A stretch of 44,545 nt of DNA, from positions 1 to 44,545 of the forward strand of contig MEKI01000102.1 in the NCBI GenBank assembly GCA_001766905.1, in the 5' to 3' direction. How positions within the stretch are numbered: position 1 is the first letter of the stretch; the number at the start of each line of letters is the position of its first letter. Positions 32,755-44,347 of this stretch are shown here, one piece after another. The translations under genes were made by a program, and so were the position numbers. The stretch comes from Acidobacteria bacterium RBG_13_68_16. GTDB taxonomy: Bacteria > Acidobacteriota > Thermoanaerobaculia > Thermoanaerobaculales > Thermoanaerobaculaceae. A model generated the notes under the pieces. That model saw only the letters and a list, made by a program, of their open reading frames with translations, was not told where the DNA came from and searched no databases.

Positions 32755-34107
32755 TCAACTCGCCGGCCGAGCAAGCTTTACGGCTTCGAGGCGCTCCATG
32801 AAGGGCGCGTTGACCGCGCGTGCCTCCGCGAGCACCTCCTCCGCCTGCTCCCGCGCCCCCCCAGCCTGGAGCGCCCGAGCCAGGACAAAGCGGTTGATGA
32901 GCTTGAAGAGCCCGGGACCGAGCTCACGGTAGGCCATGCCCTTGTCGGCGACGCGGAAACGTTCGACAGCTTCGGTTGCATTGCCCTGCGAGAGGAGGAG
33001 GGCCCCTTCCATGTGCGCGAGAAGGGCCTCCACGTAGCGCCTCGACGGTACGGCCGCTGGCAACTTCGCCAGCGCGCCATGCCTCTCCGCGACGAGGGCC
33101 TCGGCTTCGGCCCGTCGTCCGGTCGCCAGGGCCGCCCACAGCTTGAGCACGTTGTCGCTGACGTCCTCTGAGGCGCAGGCGGCTTGCTCGGCATTCCACA
33201 CGCCCTGCCAGTCGCTCGCCAGAAACGGCGGAAACACCGCCGCCTGGCAGCGCATCGCCTTGAGCATGTAGGCGGGGCACGCGTCGACCTTCTCCGCGCG
33301 GGCCAGAGCAGCCCCGGCTTCCTCGGGCCGCCCGGCCATCAGTGCGAGGTTCGCCAGGTGCTGGTACGAGGCGCAGAAGTCCGGCCTCATACGGAGCGCC
33401 TCCTCAAGCTCGCGTTTGGCGTCGTCGTACCGACCGGTGAGGATCAGCAGCTCGCCGAGCGAATCGTGAGGGTTGGCCTGGTCCGGCGCAATGTACCGGT
33501 AGGTCTCGAACATCCTTTTTGATTCGGCGAAGCGCCCCAGCCCCATTTCGAGGTACCCGAGTTGGTTGTAGGCCATCACGCGGTTGGGCGCGACCTCCAG
33601 GAGGCGCGTCAGGAGCCGCCTGGACTCCGGCCAGTCGTGCCGGGCCGCAGCGAGGTTGGCCAGACCCTCCAGAACAAACGGGTCGTCCGGCCTCTTTGCC
33701 GCGTACTCCTCCAGGGCCTTCTGGGCTCTCGCGGGGTCCTTTGTGTAGTCGGCGAGGGTGGACGTGATCAGGAAACGCTCGCGGTCCGTCACCTTGGATA
33801 GGTCCGCCTTCTGCAGCTCCGCGACGAGCTTCTTGATCTCCGGGTCGCTGGACGGGTGCTGCTTGCTGACGAGGAGGAAACGCTTGGCGACCACGAACTG
33901 CGGGTCCGACTCGACGGCCTTCTCGAAACGTCTGGCCGCCTCGTTGTAGTAGATCCTCTGGAGGGAATCCAGCCCCTCTTGGAACTCCGCCAGCGCCTGC
34001 GGGGAGGTGGTGGTCCACTCCGGCTTTCGAGCAGGGAGCATCAGGAGCGCAGCGGCCACCGCCACCAACAGCAGCACGCCTACCAACGCGAGTATCTTGA
34101 CCTTCAC
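32755..34107 (-). CDS. Membrane-anchored TPR protein
   Basis: A 450-residue protein with one N-terminal membrane helix or signal anchor (ILALVGVLLLVAVAAALLML) followed by TPR-like helical pairs throughout (FQEGLDSLQRIYYNEAARRFEKAVESDPQF, AYNQLGYLEMGLGRFAESKRMFE, PHDSLGELLILTGRYDDAKRELEEAL). The arrangement is like the TPR tails of acidobacterial kinases and CadC-like regulators, here without a kinase or DNA-binding domain. Start at GTG 34107 with GGAGG upstream. Confidence 0.8.
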   Translation of the reverse strand: MKVKILALVGVLLLVAVAAALLMLPARKPEWTTTSPQALAEFQEGLDSLQRIYYNEAARRFEKAVESDPQFVVAKRFLLVSKQHPSSDPEIKKLVAELQKADLSKVTDRERFLITSTLADYTKDPARAQKALEEYAAKRPDDPFVLEGLANLAAARHDWPESRRLLTRLLEVAPNRVMAYNQLGYLEMGLGRFAESKRMFETYRYIAPDQANPHDSLGELLILTGRYDDAKRELEEALRMRPDFCASYQHLANLALMAGRPEEAGAALARAEKVDACPAYMLKAMRCQAAVFPPFLASDWQGVWNAEQAACASEDVSDNVLKLWAALATGRRAEAEALVAERHGALAKLPAAVPSRRYVEALLAHMEGALLLSQGNATEAVERFRVADKGMAYRELGPGLFKLINRFVLARALQAGGAREQAEEVLAEARAVNAPFMERLEAVKLARPAS

Positions 34108-34213
34108 CTTGCCTCCAGGGTAGCCCGTTCCCCGCGCCTCCCGTCGGGTCGCGCCGGGCACACCGCCCCCTCATGCTTGATACGTACGGCCGCGGAGGGG
34201 GTTTCGCTCCGGC

Positions 34214-40029: not shown

Positions 40030-40443
40030 GTCGACCTCCACCAGTCCCGGCACCTGGCCGATGCCGGAGACGTCCACGGGGCTATTTTGCCCCAAGAAAA
40101 GGTCGGTCCACCCTGCTGCCCATTCAGGGTGGACCCGAGGAAGAAGGATGAAGCGCGCTTGAGTTGGCCGCTCCAACCCAGCACGCCACCACGATCGGCC
40201 CAATCCTGAGGAAAGTCCTTCCGTCCGCTGTTCATCCCCGTTGAAGAACCTTTCAATTCCCGTTGAAGCCGGACACGATCCGACCCCTCCGGAGGTCGGC
40301 TCGCCCGATCGATTGGCGGGTGGCGACGCGCCTCGTCTTCCCGTGACCTCAACCGAACTGTAAGCCAAAACAACTTGGTTCCAAACAACTTTCGTGTCGG
40401 TCCCGCCGAACTTCTCGGTGGAGAGTTGAGGAGCGGGACCACG
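40030..40443. promoter_or_regulatory. Long divergent intergenic region with hairpins and repeats
   Basis: This 414-nt gap has no gene on either strand. It holds: a stem GGGGC-TATTTT-GCCCC (40078-40093); an 11-bp perfect hairpin GGTCCACCCTG / CAGGGTGGACC (40105-40135); two CCCGTTGAAG copies 22 nt apart (40237-40246, 40259-40268), each preceded by TTCA; and two AACAACTT copies 15 nt apart (40369-40376, 40384-40391). The first two would be in the leader of the beta-lactamase-family gene; the others could be binding sites for a regulator of either gene. Confidence 0.5.
40105..40135 (-). terminator. 11-bp hairpin in leader of beta-lactamase-family gene
   Basis: Perfect 11-bp arms with a 9-nt loop, followed on the minus strand by GACCTTTTCTT, giving a terminator-like shape 76 nt upstream of the start codon. 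It could act as an attenuator, or as a terminator of stray antisense transcription. Confidence 0.45.
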
Positions 40444-41073
40444 ATGGGCAGCGGCCCCACACCGGTCACCCTGAAGCCGAGCCACCCGGCGGCGCAGCGC
40501 GGGCTGAAGGCCGTCCTCATGATGACAGCCCTCGTGCTGCTCCCGGTGACGGCCGCTCCGCAGTCCTCCCCCAGGGGATCGGGGTCCGACAGACAAACAC
40601 TCTCTCAAGACGCGAACGGTCCGGAGAGGGCTGAACAGGCCATAGAGCTCACCATGTTGGCACGCGAGCGGTTCCCTCGCCCCTCGATGGACGGCTCGGT
40701 GCCACCCATCATGAGGTACCAGCTCGCGAAGGCCTACGACACCGCGATCAGGGTGCTGCGGAGGGAGCCGGGGTGCCGGACCCTCTTCCAGCGGTTGGGC
40801 GCCAATGGTGAGGATGTCCTCGCACGCTCCCGGTACTACGCCGCAGGGGAGAGCCGCCACTGCCAGGAGGGGGTTCCAGCCTTTACCAACGTTGGCAGCA
40901 CGCAGATCAAGCTGTGCCGCAGCTTCGGCGAGCTCCAGGCCTCCAGCGCCGCCGTCCTCCTCCTCCACGAGGCGCTGCACTCGTCGGGTCTGCGGGAGAG
41001 CCCTGGGTACCCCAACGCCCTGACTGCCAGGGAGATCAACGTGGTCGTTAGCCAGGGGTGCAGCCTGCAGTGA
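40444..41073 (+). CDS. Exported protein with HExxH motif, unknown family
   Basis: A 209-residue protein with a signal peptide (AVLMMTALVLLPVTAAPQ). The C-terminal half has four Cys (111, 140, 158, 206), suited to two disulfides, and HEALH at 175-179, followed by NALTAREINVVV. HEALH with nearby Ser-Gly resembles the short zincin signature of lysine-specific or deuterolysin-like peptidases, but the third ligand is not obvious. Start at ATG 40444 with GAGGAG upstream was preferred to the ORF-track ATG at 40375. Lies 97 nt before two CadC-like regulator genes on the same strand. Confidence 0.65.
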   Translation: MGSGPTPVTLKPSHPAAQRGLKAVLMMTALVLLPVTAAPQSSPRGSGSDRQTLSQDANGPERAEQAIELTMLARERFPRPSMDGSVPPIMRYQLAKAYDTAIRVLRREPGCRTLFQRLGANGEDVLARSRYYAAGESRHCQEGVPAFTNVGSTQIKLCRSFGELQASSAAVLLLHEALHSSGLRESPGYPNALTAREINVVVSQGCSLQ

Positions 41074-41170
41074 GCCCTCCCCGCTCGCACACCCCGGGAA
41101 ACCCCCAGGCCGACCCCTAGGGGCCAGCCCGCGATAACCCGCGCACCCTTCGCACGTATAGAGATCGAGT

Positions 41171-42175
41171 ATGAACGCGGTTCCAGCGGATCGCCGGAAC
41201 GCGGAGTTCCGTGTCGGCGAGTGGCTGGTTCGGCCGAGCCTGAACCAGCTCTCGCGCGGGGGGACCGTCCTGCACCTGCGCCCGAAGGCAATGGACGTTC
41301 TCGTGTACCTGGCCGCACGAGGCACCACGGTGGTCTCCAAGGATGAGGTCATCAAGGCGATCTGGGCGAAGCAGTTCCTTGCCGATTCGGCGCTCTCGCG
41401 GGCCGTGTGTGAGCTGAGGCAGGCGCTGGGGGACGAGGCCCAGCGGTCCACCTACATCCAGACCATTCCGAAACGCGGGTATCGCCTCATCACCGCGGTC
41501 CGGCAGGTCGAACCGGCCATGGAGTCAGCAGAACCCCCGCGGGAGCCGGCGCCTCACCGGGTCGCTGGGGACGTTTCGAGGCGCCGCTCCGCACCGGCCG
41601 GCCTCTCCGCACTGCTGCTCCTCCTCACCGCCTGGGTGACGGGTCACGAGGCGCGCCCGAGCGTGCGCAGGGTGACGCCCCCGCTCAAGAGGGTTCTCGT
41701 GCTGCCGTTCGAAAACCTCGGCCCGGCAAGGGACGACTACCTCGCCGTTGGCATCACCGAGGAGATCACCGGGCGGCTGTCCGCCGTTCGGGAGTTCGCC
41801 GTCATCTCCAGCGGCAGCGCCGCGCGCCTCGCCCCCCTGGTCAGGAGCACCACGCAGGCCGCCCAGGAGGCCGGGGCGGACTACCTCCTTGCGGGGACCG
41901 TCCGGTGGGACCGCGAGCCGTCTGGGCGGAGTTGGGTCCGCGTCACGCCCCGCCTGGTTCGAGTCTCCGACGACACGCAGGTGTGGGCGGAGGTGTATGA
42001 CGCCGGCAACCAGGACATCCTCCGTGTCCAGTCGGAGATCGCCCGGAGCGTGGTCGCCGAGATCGGGATCGCGCTCGCCGAACCACAGCGACGCGCCGCC
42101 GGGACGTTTGGGTCGGTGGGCCAACCCGCCCCCTCGACACGAGTCGTTCACACGGGCGCGACGTCACGCCTGTGA
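41171..42175 (+). CDS. CadC-like transmembrane transcriptional regulator, short form
   Basis: A 334-residue protein with an OmpR/CadC-type winged-helix domain at residues 13-108 (LHLRPKAMDVLVYLAA, VVSKDEVIKAIW, LSRAVCELRQALGD, YIQTIPKRGYRL), one membrane helix near 140-160, and a periplasmic TolB-N-like domain at about 170-310 (RVLVLPFENLG, YLAVGITEEITGRLS, YLLAGTVRWD). It ends where its downstream paralogue continues with TPR repeats, so it is a natural short form or has lost its tail. No -10/-35 recognised; GAGATCGAG before ATG may be the ribosome site. Confidence 0.85.
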   Translation: MNAVPADRRNAEFRVGEWLVRPSLNQLSRGGTVLHLRPKAMDVLVYLAARGTTVVSKDEVIKAIWAKQFLADSALSRAVCELRQALGDEAQRSTYIQTIPKRGYRLITAVRQVEPAMESAEPPREPAPHRVAGDVSRRRSAPAGLSALLLLLTAWVTGHEARPSVRRVTPPLKRVLVLPFENLGPARDDYLAVGITEEITGRLSAVREFAVISSGSAARLAPLVRSTTQAAQEAGADYLLAGTVRWDREPSGRSWVRVTPRLVRVSDDTQVWAEVYDAGNQDILRVQSEIARSVVAEIGIALAEPQRRAAGTFGSVGQPAPSTRVVHTGATSRL

Positions 42176-42192
42176 GAACAGCCCCATAGGTT

Positions 42193-42211
42193 TGTTTCGT
42201 TGAGCGAAACA
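42193..42211 (+). promoter_or_regulatory. Hairpin with start codon in the loop
   Basis: TGTTTCG and CGAAACA form a perfect 7-bp stem around the loop TTGAG. The TTG start codon of the next gene (42200-42202) is the first three loop bases. No Shine-Dalgarno sequence is present. Confidence 0.5.
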
Positions 42212-44347
42212 TCCACACGCCCGCCGCCCCAGAGCTTCCTCCTCGGCGACTGGCTCGTCGAGCCTACCCTCAACCTCGTGTCGCGCGGGCAGACGCTCGT
42301 CCACCTCCGCCCCAAGGTGATGGACGTGCTGGTGCTCCTCGCCGCCCACCCGGGCGAGGTCGTCTCCAAGGACGTGATCATCACAGCTGTGTGGTCCAAG
42401 AGAATCCTTGCCGACGCCGTCCTCTCCCGTGCCGTCTTCGAGCTCCGCGAGGCCCTGGGCGACAACGCGCAGCAACCCAGGTTCATCGAAACCGTTGCGA
42501 AACGTGGGTATCGCCTCCTCGCCCCGGTGGCCCCCCCGAAACCGCTCGAGAGAGTCTCGCCGGCCCCTCTTCTCCAAGCGAGGTCACCGACGCGACTCCT
42601 TATGGCCACTGCGGCGGTGGTGTTGCCGCTCGCGGTCGTCGCCGGCTGGCTCACCCTCGGCCGCCGAACACCAGAGGACGTCCAGGGCTCGGCCCGACCC
42701 CAGAGCCGAATCGTCGTGTTGCCGTTCGTGAACCTGGGTCCCCCCGAGGACAACTACTTCGCGGCCGGAATCACCGAGGAGATCACGAGTCGGCTCACCT
42801 CCGTACCCGGCATCGCCGTCATTTCGCGCGACAGCGCGGACCACTACGCAAACTCGAGCAAAACCCACCAGGAAATCGGTCGAGAGCTGAGAGTCGCCTA
42901 CGTCCTCGACGGAACGGTCCGATGGGACCGCGGCCGAGACCGCGCCAGCCACGTCCGCATAGCTCCTCGCCTGATTCGCGTCGACGACGACACCCAGGTG
43001 TGGGCCGATGCATACGATCGCGTGATCGAGGACATCTTCACCGTGCAGTCGGAGATTGCGCGCAGCGTCATCGTCCAGGTCGGTATCACGCTGCGTGAAC
43101 CGGAGCGCGACGAGGTTGAAGGCAGGCCGACGGACAACCTCGACGCCTACCAGGCCTATCTCAGGGGGATGTACCACGGGGCCTCGGTGTACAGGCCGGA
43201 GCAAAGCCTCCGGCTCGCGCTCCAGATGCTGGAGCGTGCGGTCCAACTCGACCCCGGTTTTGCCCTGGCCTGGGCCGAGATTGCGCGGGTCCGGGCGGTG
43301 ATGTACCTCGACGGGTTCGACCGCAGCGAACGCTCCCGCTCCGAGGCGAGACAGGCGATCGATCGCGCCCTCAGGTTAGCCCCCGAGTCGCCCAGGGTTC
43401 GGTTCGACTTGGGGCTCTACTACTACTGGTTCGATCACGACTACCAGCGCGCTCTCGACGAGTTCGGCAGGGCCAGAAAGGCCCGCAACGACTGGGCCGA
43501 CATCCGGGTCGCGGAGGCCTATGTGCTGCGGCGCGGGGGACGTTGGGATGAGGCACTCAAAAACCTCGACCAGGCGGCTGAGTTGGATCCGCGGGGATGG
43601 GGGGTGGCACGCGAGCAAGGCGTCACCTGCCTCTACCTGCGCCGGTACGACGAGGCGGAGCGCCACCTCAGGAAGGCCATCGCCCTCGCTCCCGACGAGC
43701 AGGAGGTGTACGGCTTTTTGGCCGAGACCTACTGGGGCTGGACGGGCGACCTCGCGAAAGCGCGCGCGACCCTCCAGGCGATGCCGCCCTCAGGCGACGC
43801 GTGGCCGACGTACTGGTGGTTTTGGCAGGAGGTCTACGAAGGCAACTATCAGGAGGCCCTCAACCGCACTTTGGCAAGCCCAGTCGACACAATCGGGGCT
43901 GCTCTGACCTGGGTATCGAAGAATATGCTCGTGGCTCGCGCCTACGGCCTTCTCGGCCGTACGACCGACGCCCGCGCGACGTTCCAGCGCGAGCGTGACA
44001 GGCTCGAGCACCTGCTCCGCGAGACACCGGACGACTTCAGCTTGCGCTCCGCCTTTGGCCTCTGCCTCGCCGGCGTCGGTCAGAGGGACGAGGCGATCCG
44101 CGAGGGTCGGCGAGCGACCGAGCTTCTGCCGATCAGCAAGGACGCCGTCTACGGCCACGGATCGGTCTTGACGTTGGCGGAGATCTACACGATGGTCGGC
44201 GAGTCCGAGTTGGCGTGCGCACAACTCGAGACTCTTCTCGCCATGCCGTCGACGATCTCTGTGCCGATGCTCAAGCTCGACCCACGCTGGCTCCCTTTGC
44301 GCGGCAATCCACGGTTCCAAGCGCTCCTCAATAGGTTCGGGCGGTAG
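42200..44347 (+). CDS. CadC-like transmembrane regulator with TPR tail
   Basis: A 715-residue paralogue of the preceding gene: winged helix at about 13-108 (LHLRPKVMDVLVLLAA-type helix, VVSKDVIITAVW, LSRAVFELREALGD, ETVAKRGYRLL), membrane helix near 135-155 (LLMATAAVVLPLAVVAGWLTL), TolB-N-like domain to about 310 (RIVVLPFVNLG, YFAAGITEEITSRLT, YVLDGTVRWDRG), then a 400-residue TPR array (DAYQAYLRGMYHG, ALQMLERAVQLDPGFALAW, DEAERHLRKAIALAPDEQEVYGFLAETYWG). Such one-component regulators bind DNA while sensing signals across the inner membrane. The only usable start is TTG at 42200, 24 nt and in the same frame after the upstream stop, inside a small hairpin loop. Confidence 0.87.
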   Translation: MSETSTRPPPQSFLLGDWLVEPTLNLVSRGQTLVHLRPKVMDVLVLLAAHPGEVVSKDVIITAVWSKRILADAVLSRAVFELREALGDNAQQPRFIETVAKRGYRLLAPVAPPKPLERVSPAPLLQARSPTRLLMATAAVVLPLAVVAGWLTLGRRTPEDVQGSARPQSRIVVLPFVNLGPPEDNYFAAGITEEITSRLTSVPGIAVISRDSADHYANSSKTHQEIGRELRVAYVLDGTVRWDRGRDRASHVRIAPRLIRVDDDTQVWADAYDRVIEDIFTVQSEIARSVIVQVGITLREPERDEVEGRPTDNLDAYQAYLRGMYHGASVYRPEQSLRLALQMLERAVQLDPGFALAWAEIARVRAVMYLDGFDRSERSRSEARQAIDRALRLAPESPRVRFDLGLYYYWFDHDYQRALDEFGRARKARNDWADIRVAEAYVLRRGGRWDEALKNLDQAAELDPRGWGVAREQGVTCLYLRRYDEAERHLRKAIALAPDEQEVYGFLAETYWGWTGDLAKARATLQAMPPSGDAWPTYWWFWQEVYEGNYQEALNRTLASPVDTIGAALTWVSKNMLVARAYGLLGRTTDARATFQRERDRLEHLLRETPDDFSLRSAFGLCLAGVGQRDEAIREGRRATELLPISKDAVYGHGSVLTLAEIYTMVGESELACAQLETLLAMPSTISVPMLKLDPRWLPLRGNPRFQALLNRFGR

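Follow-up and report, generated by a model that had tools for sequence, protein, structure and literature searches.

At the end of contig C102 (MEKI01000102.1), which makes up the whole window analysed here (44,545 nucleotides) and comes from an Acidobacteriota MAG (3.6 Mb, 163 contigs, 91% complete), two genes coding for CadC-like regulators of 334 and 715 aa follow one another on the same strand and in the same frame, and TPRs are encoded by the second one alone. How did such a pair arise, and what could a TPR-less regulator do in front of a complete one? As an earlier note on this stretch had described, a single TGA and eight in-frame codons lie between the two ORFs; coordinates, frame and spacing were all confirmed, no further stop codon being present between them beyond this TGA (Table 1). 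The TTG start of the long gene is backed by the long protein of a congener, which reads L/M-SDTPVRPAPQSF as compared with SETSTRPPPQSF here. The explanation that we favour, and that we consider fairly probable, is that the pair represents an old tandem duplicate of a membrane one-component regulator of the CadC/ToxR type, organized as a two-gene operon under one ECF-type promoter, in which the first copy has lost its TPRs. It is supported by the architecture of the two proteins, their paralogy, the conservation of the domains kept in the short protein, a promoter motif found before the first copy only, and the presence in congeners of a long/long tandem and of a remnant followed by a long gene.

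Table 1. Features of the regulator pair and of related loci (positions are those of the window unless another locus is given).
Feature	Position	Strand	Basis or remarks
Upstream gene, 232 aa	40375..41073	+	Signal-peptide-like N-terminus; HExxHxxGxxE (HEALHSSGLRE); putative secreted zinc metallopeptidase
ECF-sigma-type promoter motif AACC-N15-CGTAT	41136..41159	+	11 nt 5' of the ATG of the short gene
Short CadC-like regulator	41171..42175	+	334 aa, no TPRs; ATG 41171, TGA 42173-42175
Winged-helix DNA-binding domain, short protein (aa 13-112)	41207..41506	+	Pfam, AlphaFold, Foldseek
Weak TM segment, short protein (aa 140-158)	41588..41644	+	Kyte-Doolittle hydropathy
TolB-N-like alpha/beta domain, short protein (aa 172-307)	41684..42091	+	Paralogue alignment, AlphaFold, Foldseek
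C-terminal tail, short protein (27 residues)	42092..42172	+	No relatives, low pLDDT, non-coding-like codons
Spacer: TGA and eight in-frame codons (42176-42199)	42173..42199	+	Promoter motif absent
Long CadC-like regulator	42200..44347	+	715 aa; TTG 42200, TAG 44345-44347
Layout of the long protein			Winged helix aa 13-112; TM ~133-151; TolB-like ~168-303; TPRs ~317-711
G001 first-copy remnant, internally deleted, frameshifted	L038 9741-9466	-	ECF-type promoter motif kept
HExxH-regulator neighbourhoods	window 40375-41073; L083, L084, L088-L090, L092-L094, L096, L108		
wHTH-FHA proteins	L066 4020-4751, L067 667-1449, L072 1714-2529, L073 4879-5661, L074 5768-6532, L075 3255-3986		

Regarding the architecture, the short and long proteins align over about 296 columns (aa 13-307 and 13-303) with 50% identity (E=2e-84), far beyond chance, and by this alignment they are paralogues. 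The winged helix and the TolB-N-like domain attributed to both by the earlier note are indeed common to them. Pfam Trans_reg_C (PF00486) is found in each (E=7e-15 and 3e-16), and AlphaFold predicts in the short protein two confident domains (aa 13-112 and ~172-300, pLDDT >90), the linker and the tail being disordered. With Foldseek, the first of these domains matches the DBD of E. coli CadC (5ju7, 41% identity, E=1.6e-7) and that of ToxR, and the second one the N-terminal domain of TolB, PelC and FlgT. The TolB-N-like domain, which is reported by no Pfam model in either protein, is recognized by its fold; it stands after the TM segment and is a putative periplasmic sensor. Pfam TPR families are present in the long protein only, which confines the TPRs to the second regulator as proposed, and the HilA/EilA model matches this protein as well. 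The CadC equivalog NF007540 gave 99.4 and 92.9 bits against a cut-off of 400, the wHTH region alone being matched. As for the membrane helix said to be common to both, it is clear in the long protein (best 19-residue Kyte-Doolittle mean of 2.27) and only marginal in the short one (1.47), relatives ranging from 1.6 to 2.9. Finally, the two winged helices are identical at 60 of 100 positions and their recognition-helix regions at 15 of 19, which makes overlapping operators plausible and agrees with the suggestion that the two could compete for DNA sites.

In named genomes, Acidobacteriota MAGs, among them Acidobacteria bacterium FW104_bin.1, WY1.bin89 and Terriglobia SRVP_14, provided relatives when an alignment served as query, and the scan with the short protein alone as query returned none. 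A third paralogue, of 718 aa, is encoded in the same genome (contig C137). Among congeners, FW104_bin.1 (G002, SCRJ01000061) possesses a tandem of two long proteins (726 and 723 aa) whose genes are 52 nt apart, in different frames, and located behind the same upstream HExxH gene as the window pair; G006 contains a single long copy; and G001 contains an intact long gene with, 94 nt 5' of it, a first-copy remnant in which ~30 N-terminal residues are joined by a frameshift to 45 C-terminal residues, ~640 residues being gone. G010, a member of another genus of the same family, also carries this upstream gene, and the regulator encoded behind it is TPR-less (352 aa) and stands without a long partner. 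Searches with the common region brought up no other tandem of this architecture among the matches listed for the order (37 genomes) or among the best matches listed for the class (149 genomes). The similar short/long pairs that the earlier note had looked to in other genomes are thus absent from the matches listed for the class, where the sole other tandem is the long/long one. Judged from the sequences compared, a short gene in tandem with a long one is so far known from this genome alone among the genomes searched, and the tandem arrangement itself is older. Single-gene TPR-less wHTH-TolB proteins of 293-355 aa occur in at least nine other genomes; going by these, the absence of a TPR lobe is not unusual in relatives, and since TPR-less forms occur alone in other genera, they have no need for a long partner.

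In trees of the common region, the long gene falls together with the copies of G002 and G006, and for the short gene several origins stand as candidates, namely the G002 first copy, the C137 paralogue and a separate duplication. AU tests rejected the grouping of the short gene with the G002 first copy, in a borderline manner (p-AU 0.045), and did not reject its grouping with the long neighbour (0.18 and 0.26). This range of candidates weighs against the tandem-duplicate explanation, as do the marginal TM segment of the short protein and the solitary short gene that G010 carries behind the upstream gene, which leaves room for an older short state. That part of the long gene was duplicated recently is ruled out by the mere 50% identity of the proteins and by the deep split.

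Just 5' of the short gene lies a candidate promoter motif with AAC in the -35 element and CGT in the -10 element at a suitable spacing; promoters of ECF sigma factors are marked by AAC and CGT at these positions (PMC3426412). The form AACC-N15/16-CGTA is also present just 5' of the C137 paralogue, the G002 first copy, the G006 gene, the C5 copy of G010, the G001 remnant and, by eye, the C88 short gene of G010, and it is absent 5' of the window long gene, the G002 second copy and the G001 long gene. As the motif was found by inspecting these very regions, its fit there is partly by construction; its genome-wide enrichment (23 occurrences in the same genome vs 3 for the reversed pattern, and ~173 vs 25 in the genus) is independent of that choice. 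Near the pair, no sigma-70 promoter was found, and the one terminator-like site, 3' of the long gene, is a number within chance. Because the motif precedes the first copy and is absent before the second, the pair probably forms one operon with its predicted promoter before the first copy, and such a single promoter may explain why G001 has kept the promoter and the start of its deleted gene. Elsewhere in the genome, a copy of the motif (C16:38820-38844, L123) precedes an ECF sigma-factor gene, which suggests that this gene is autoregulated and that its product is a candidate for the sigma factor recognizing the motif. A second window copy of AACC-N15-CGTAT (34180-34203, minus strand) is located 18 nt 5' of a TPR-protein gene (32755-34161, minus strand).

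As for the integrity of the short gene, its protein keeps 27 of the 29 invariant positions and 88% of the near-invariant positions of the family, on par with full-length relatives, and the codon composition of its retained part is coding-like, the 334 codons being intact. In the tail, GC3 minus GC2 is 0.04, as compared with a mean of 0.36 for same-size coding windows from these genes, about 1% of which are so low. The stretch encoding these 27 residues was probably once non-coding, or out of frame, and is now read to a chance stop. Since the search for TPR traces behind the short gene was negative (none stood above shuffles in any frame, in the tail or 3' of the gene), the loss of its TPR lobe is something that we infer rather than see. 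One may then ask whether the short gene is a decaying duplicate with little function, kept for now as carrier of the operon promoter. This would fit its non-coding-like tail, its weak TM segment and an N-terminal branch longer than that of its neighbour (0.73 vs 0.48), as well as the state of the first copy in G001, reduced to the promoter and the gene ends, and the long copy standing alone in G006. We nevertheless regard decay as rather unlikely, given the intact codons, the coding-like retained part, the conserved positions kept as in functional relatives and the high confidence with which both folded domains are predicted. An assembly artefact would account for the short gene in another way, two full-length tandem genes having collapsed in the MAG with deletion of the first TPR region. 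The window being a contig of a MAG in 163 pieces and the congener pair being long/long are in its favour, but it is very improbable: the two genes have no exact match longer than 17 nt, and the one of this length lies inside the TolB-like region, away from the junction; the sequence at the short/long junction recurs elsewhere in the window over 14 nt at most, in an unrelated spot. It is this lack of a long common word at the junction which argues against the collapse of two full-length genes.

The common frame of the two ORFs had also suggested, in the earlier note, that read-through of the stop codon could produce a giant fusion protein, for which eight codons without a further stop would offer a path. 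We give this next to no credence. Indeed, one in three tandem pairs is in frame by chance, the congener pair conserves neither frame nor spacing, and the spacer (42173-42199) shows no similarity above shuffles to the intergenic regions of relatives. In addition, each half having one TM, the second winged helix of such a fusion would be placed in the periplasm and its second sensor in the cytoplasm. The non-conserved frame and spacing, together with this topology, speak against the fusion, and the same frame of the two genes is most likely due to chance.

Under the favoured scenario of an old tandem duplicate, the long copy would have the full CadC-like layout, i.e., a cytoplasmic winged helix, one TM helix, a periplasmic alpha/beta sandwich and a periplasmic TPR lobe. 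The short copy would have kept the winged helix, the TM segment and the alpha/beta domain and lost the TPR lobe at the domain boundary, through a deletion or an early stop. It may be that both proteins have remained DNA-binding dimers anchored in the membrane. Devoid of the TPR input lobe, the short one could be gated in another way or be blind to the signal, and its targets would overlap those of the long protein. In CadC, the sensor is built from an alpha/beta sandwich and a TPR lobe (PMC9214523). Dimers of CadC form through the periplasmic domain and the TM region (PMC5430869), so that mixed short/long dimers are conceivable. From there, the earlier note had proposed a built-in antagonist, the short protein damping the output of the long one in mixed dimers or on the same operators. 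Besides this mode of dimerisation, the alike recognition and winged helices, the common TolB-like domain and the probable co-transcription speak for it. We are inclined to doubt it, however, as there is no second short/long tandem among the matches listed in the class, the congener pair is long/long and TPR-less relatives occur alone; moreover, the wHTH is conserved family-wide, and the likeness of the recognition helices is therefore not specific to the pair. As far as its sequence tells, the short protein might activate regardless of the signal, act as an antagonist or do next to nothing.

The gene located upstream of the pair adds a further dimension to this locus. In the family of its product, H198, E199, H202, G205 and E208 are invariant among 19 sequences, and AlphaFold predicts aa 100-232 with a pLDDT of about 97. 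The best PDB match is deuterolysin (M35, 1eb6), with a probability of 0.99 but E=0.019, and PF14521 (M35-like, cut-off 30) gave 12.4 bits for the window protein and 22.2 bits for the G010 homologue. At 11 of 30 loci of relatives of this protein in the class, a CadC-type winged-helix gene lies within 1.5 kb, in tandem or divergent, as compared with a chance expectation of ~1% of loci (our own estimate, at ~10 such regulators per genome), and the neighbouring regulators carry three C-terminal modules (FHA, TolB and TolB-TPR). One reading of this is that the short gene serves the secreted HExxH protein encoded upstream as its dedicated partner, in a conserved peptidase-regulator module, the long gene being a passenger duplicate; G010, with the upstream gene and a short regulator but no long one, is in line with it. 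We hold this to be possible, though on the unlikely side: the regulator adjoining the upstream gene is long in G002 and of the wHTH-FHA type in other genomes, and in the window the upstream gene stands 97 nt away, without the promoter motif. The wHTH-FHA proteins (~250 aa) combine a CadC-type DNA-binding domain with FHA and have no evident membrane segment, and four of their six genes adjoin an HExxH gene. A YD-repeat (Rhs-like) protein of 592 aa (G059 C27, L099) also carries the HExxH domain, at its C-terminus, and the same genome as the window contains a second homologue of the HExxH gene (C155:442-948, L071 / L109), with a sequence partly masked (N). It is a quite speculative thought that a secreted M35-like metallopeptidase and CadC/ToxR-type regulators would act in one pathway that an ECF sigma factor switches on, with the first, TPR-less regulator as a co-expressed modulator of its long neighbour; the peptidase could, for example, process or feed the periplasmic sensor. 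The recurrence of the HExxH protein beside CadC-type regulators whose sensor modules change from locus to locus points to an undescribed Acidobacteriota pathway as a lead. Although outside the tandem finding, it is the more interesting lead.

CadC-like two-lobed receptors are models for one-protein signalling across the membrane, and if the two proteins are indeed co-expressed, such a natural pair, of which one member alone has the TPR lobe, would allow one to ask what each lobe does. Our literature search found no paper on CadC-like proteins in Acidobacteria nor on truncated antagonist paralogues of ToxR-like regulators. The closest arrangement, the G002 tandem, has the same upstream gene, the same order and the promoter motif before the first copy only, but it differs by TPRs in both copies, a 52 nt gap and different frames. 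With E. coli CadC and the ToxR-like family, the pair has in common the OmpR/CadC-type winged helix and, as predicted, an alpha/beta domain on the periplasmic side of a single TM segment (marginal in the short protein), and the helical TPR lobe of E. coli CadC (PMC9214523) is present in the long protein as well; TolB-N-like sequence, a far larger TPR region, an Acidobacteriota host and two DNA-binding paralogues in tandem set the present locus apart. The two-lobed sensor of CadC, with its alpha/beta sandwich followed by the TPR lobe, is not found in the short protein, the TPR lobe residing in the long one, and a sandwich without TPR lobe, as in the short protein, is known from ToxR and VtrA. 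HilA-type wHTH-TPR regulators resemble the long protein by their winged helix and TPR tail and differ from it in that here a TM segment and a TolB-like domain stand between the two. Finally, two adjacent co-oriented genes are also typical of the co-component systems ToxR/ToxS and VtrA/VtrC (PMC9214523), but their partner is a lipocalin-like, non-DNA-binding protein, whereas the second gene of the present pair encodes a full wHTH regulator.
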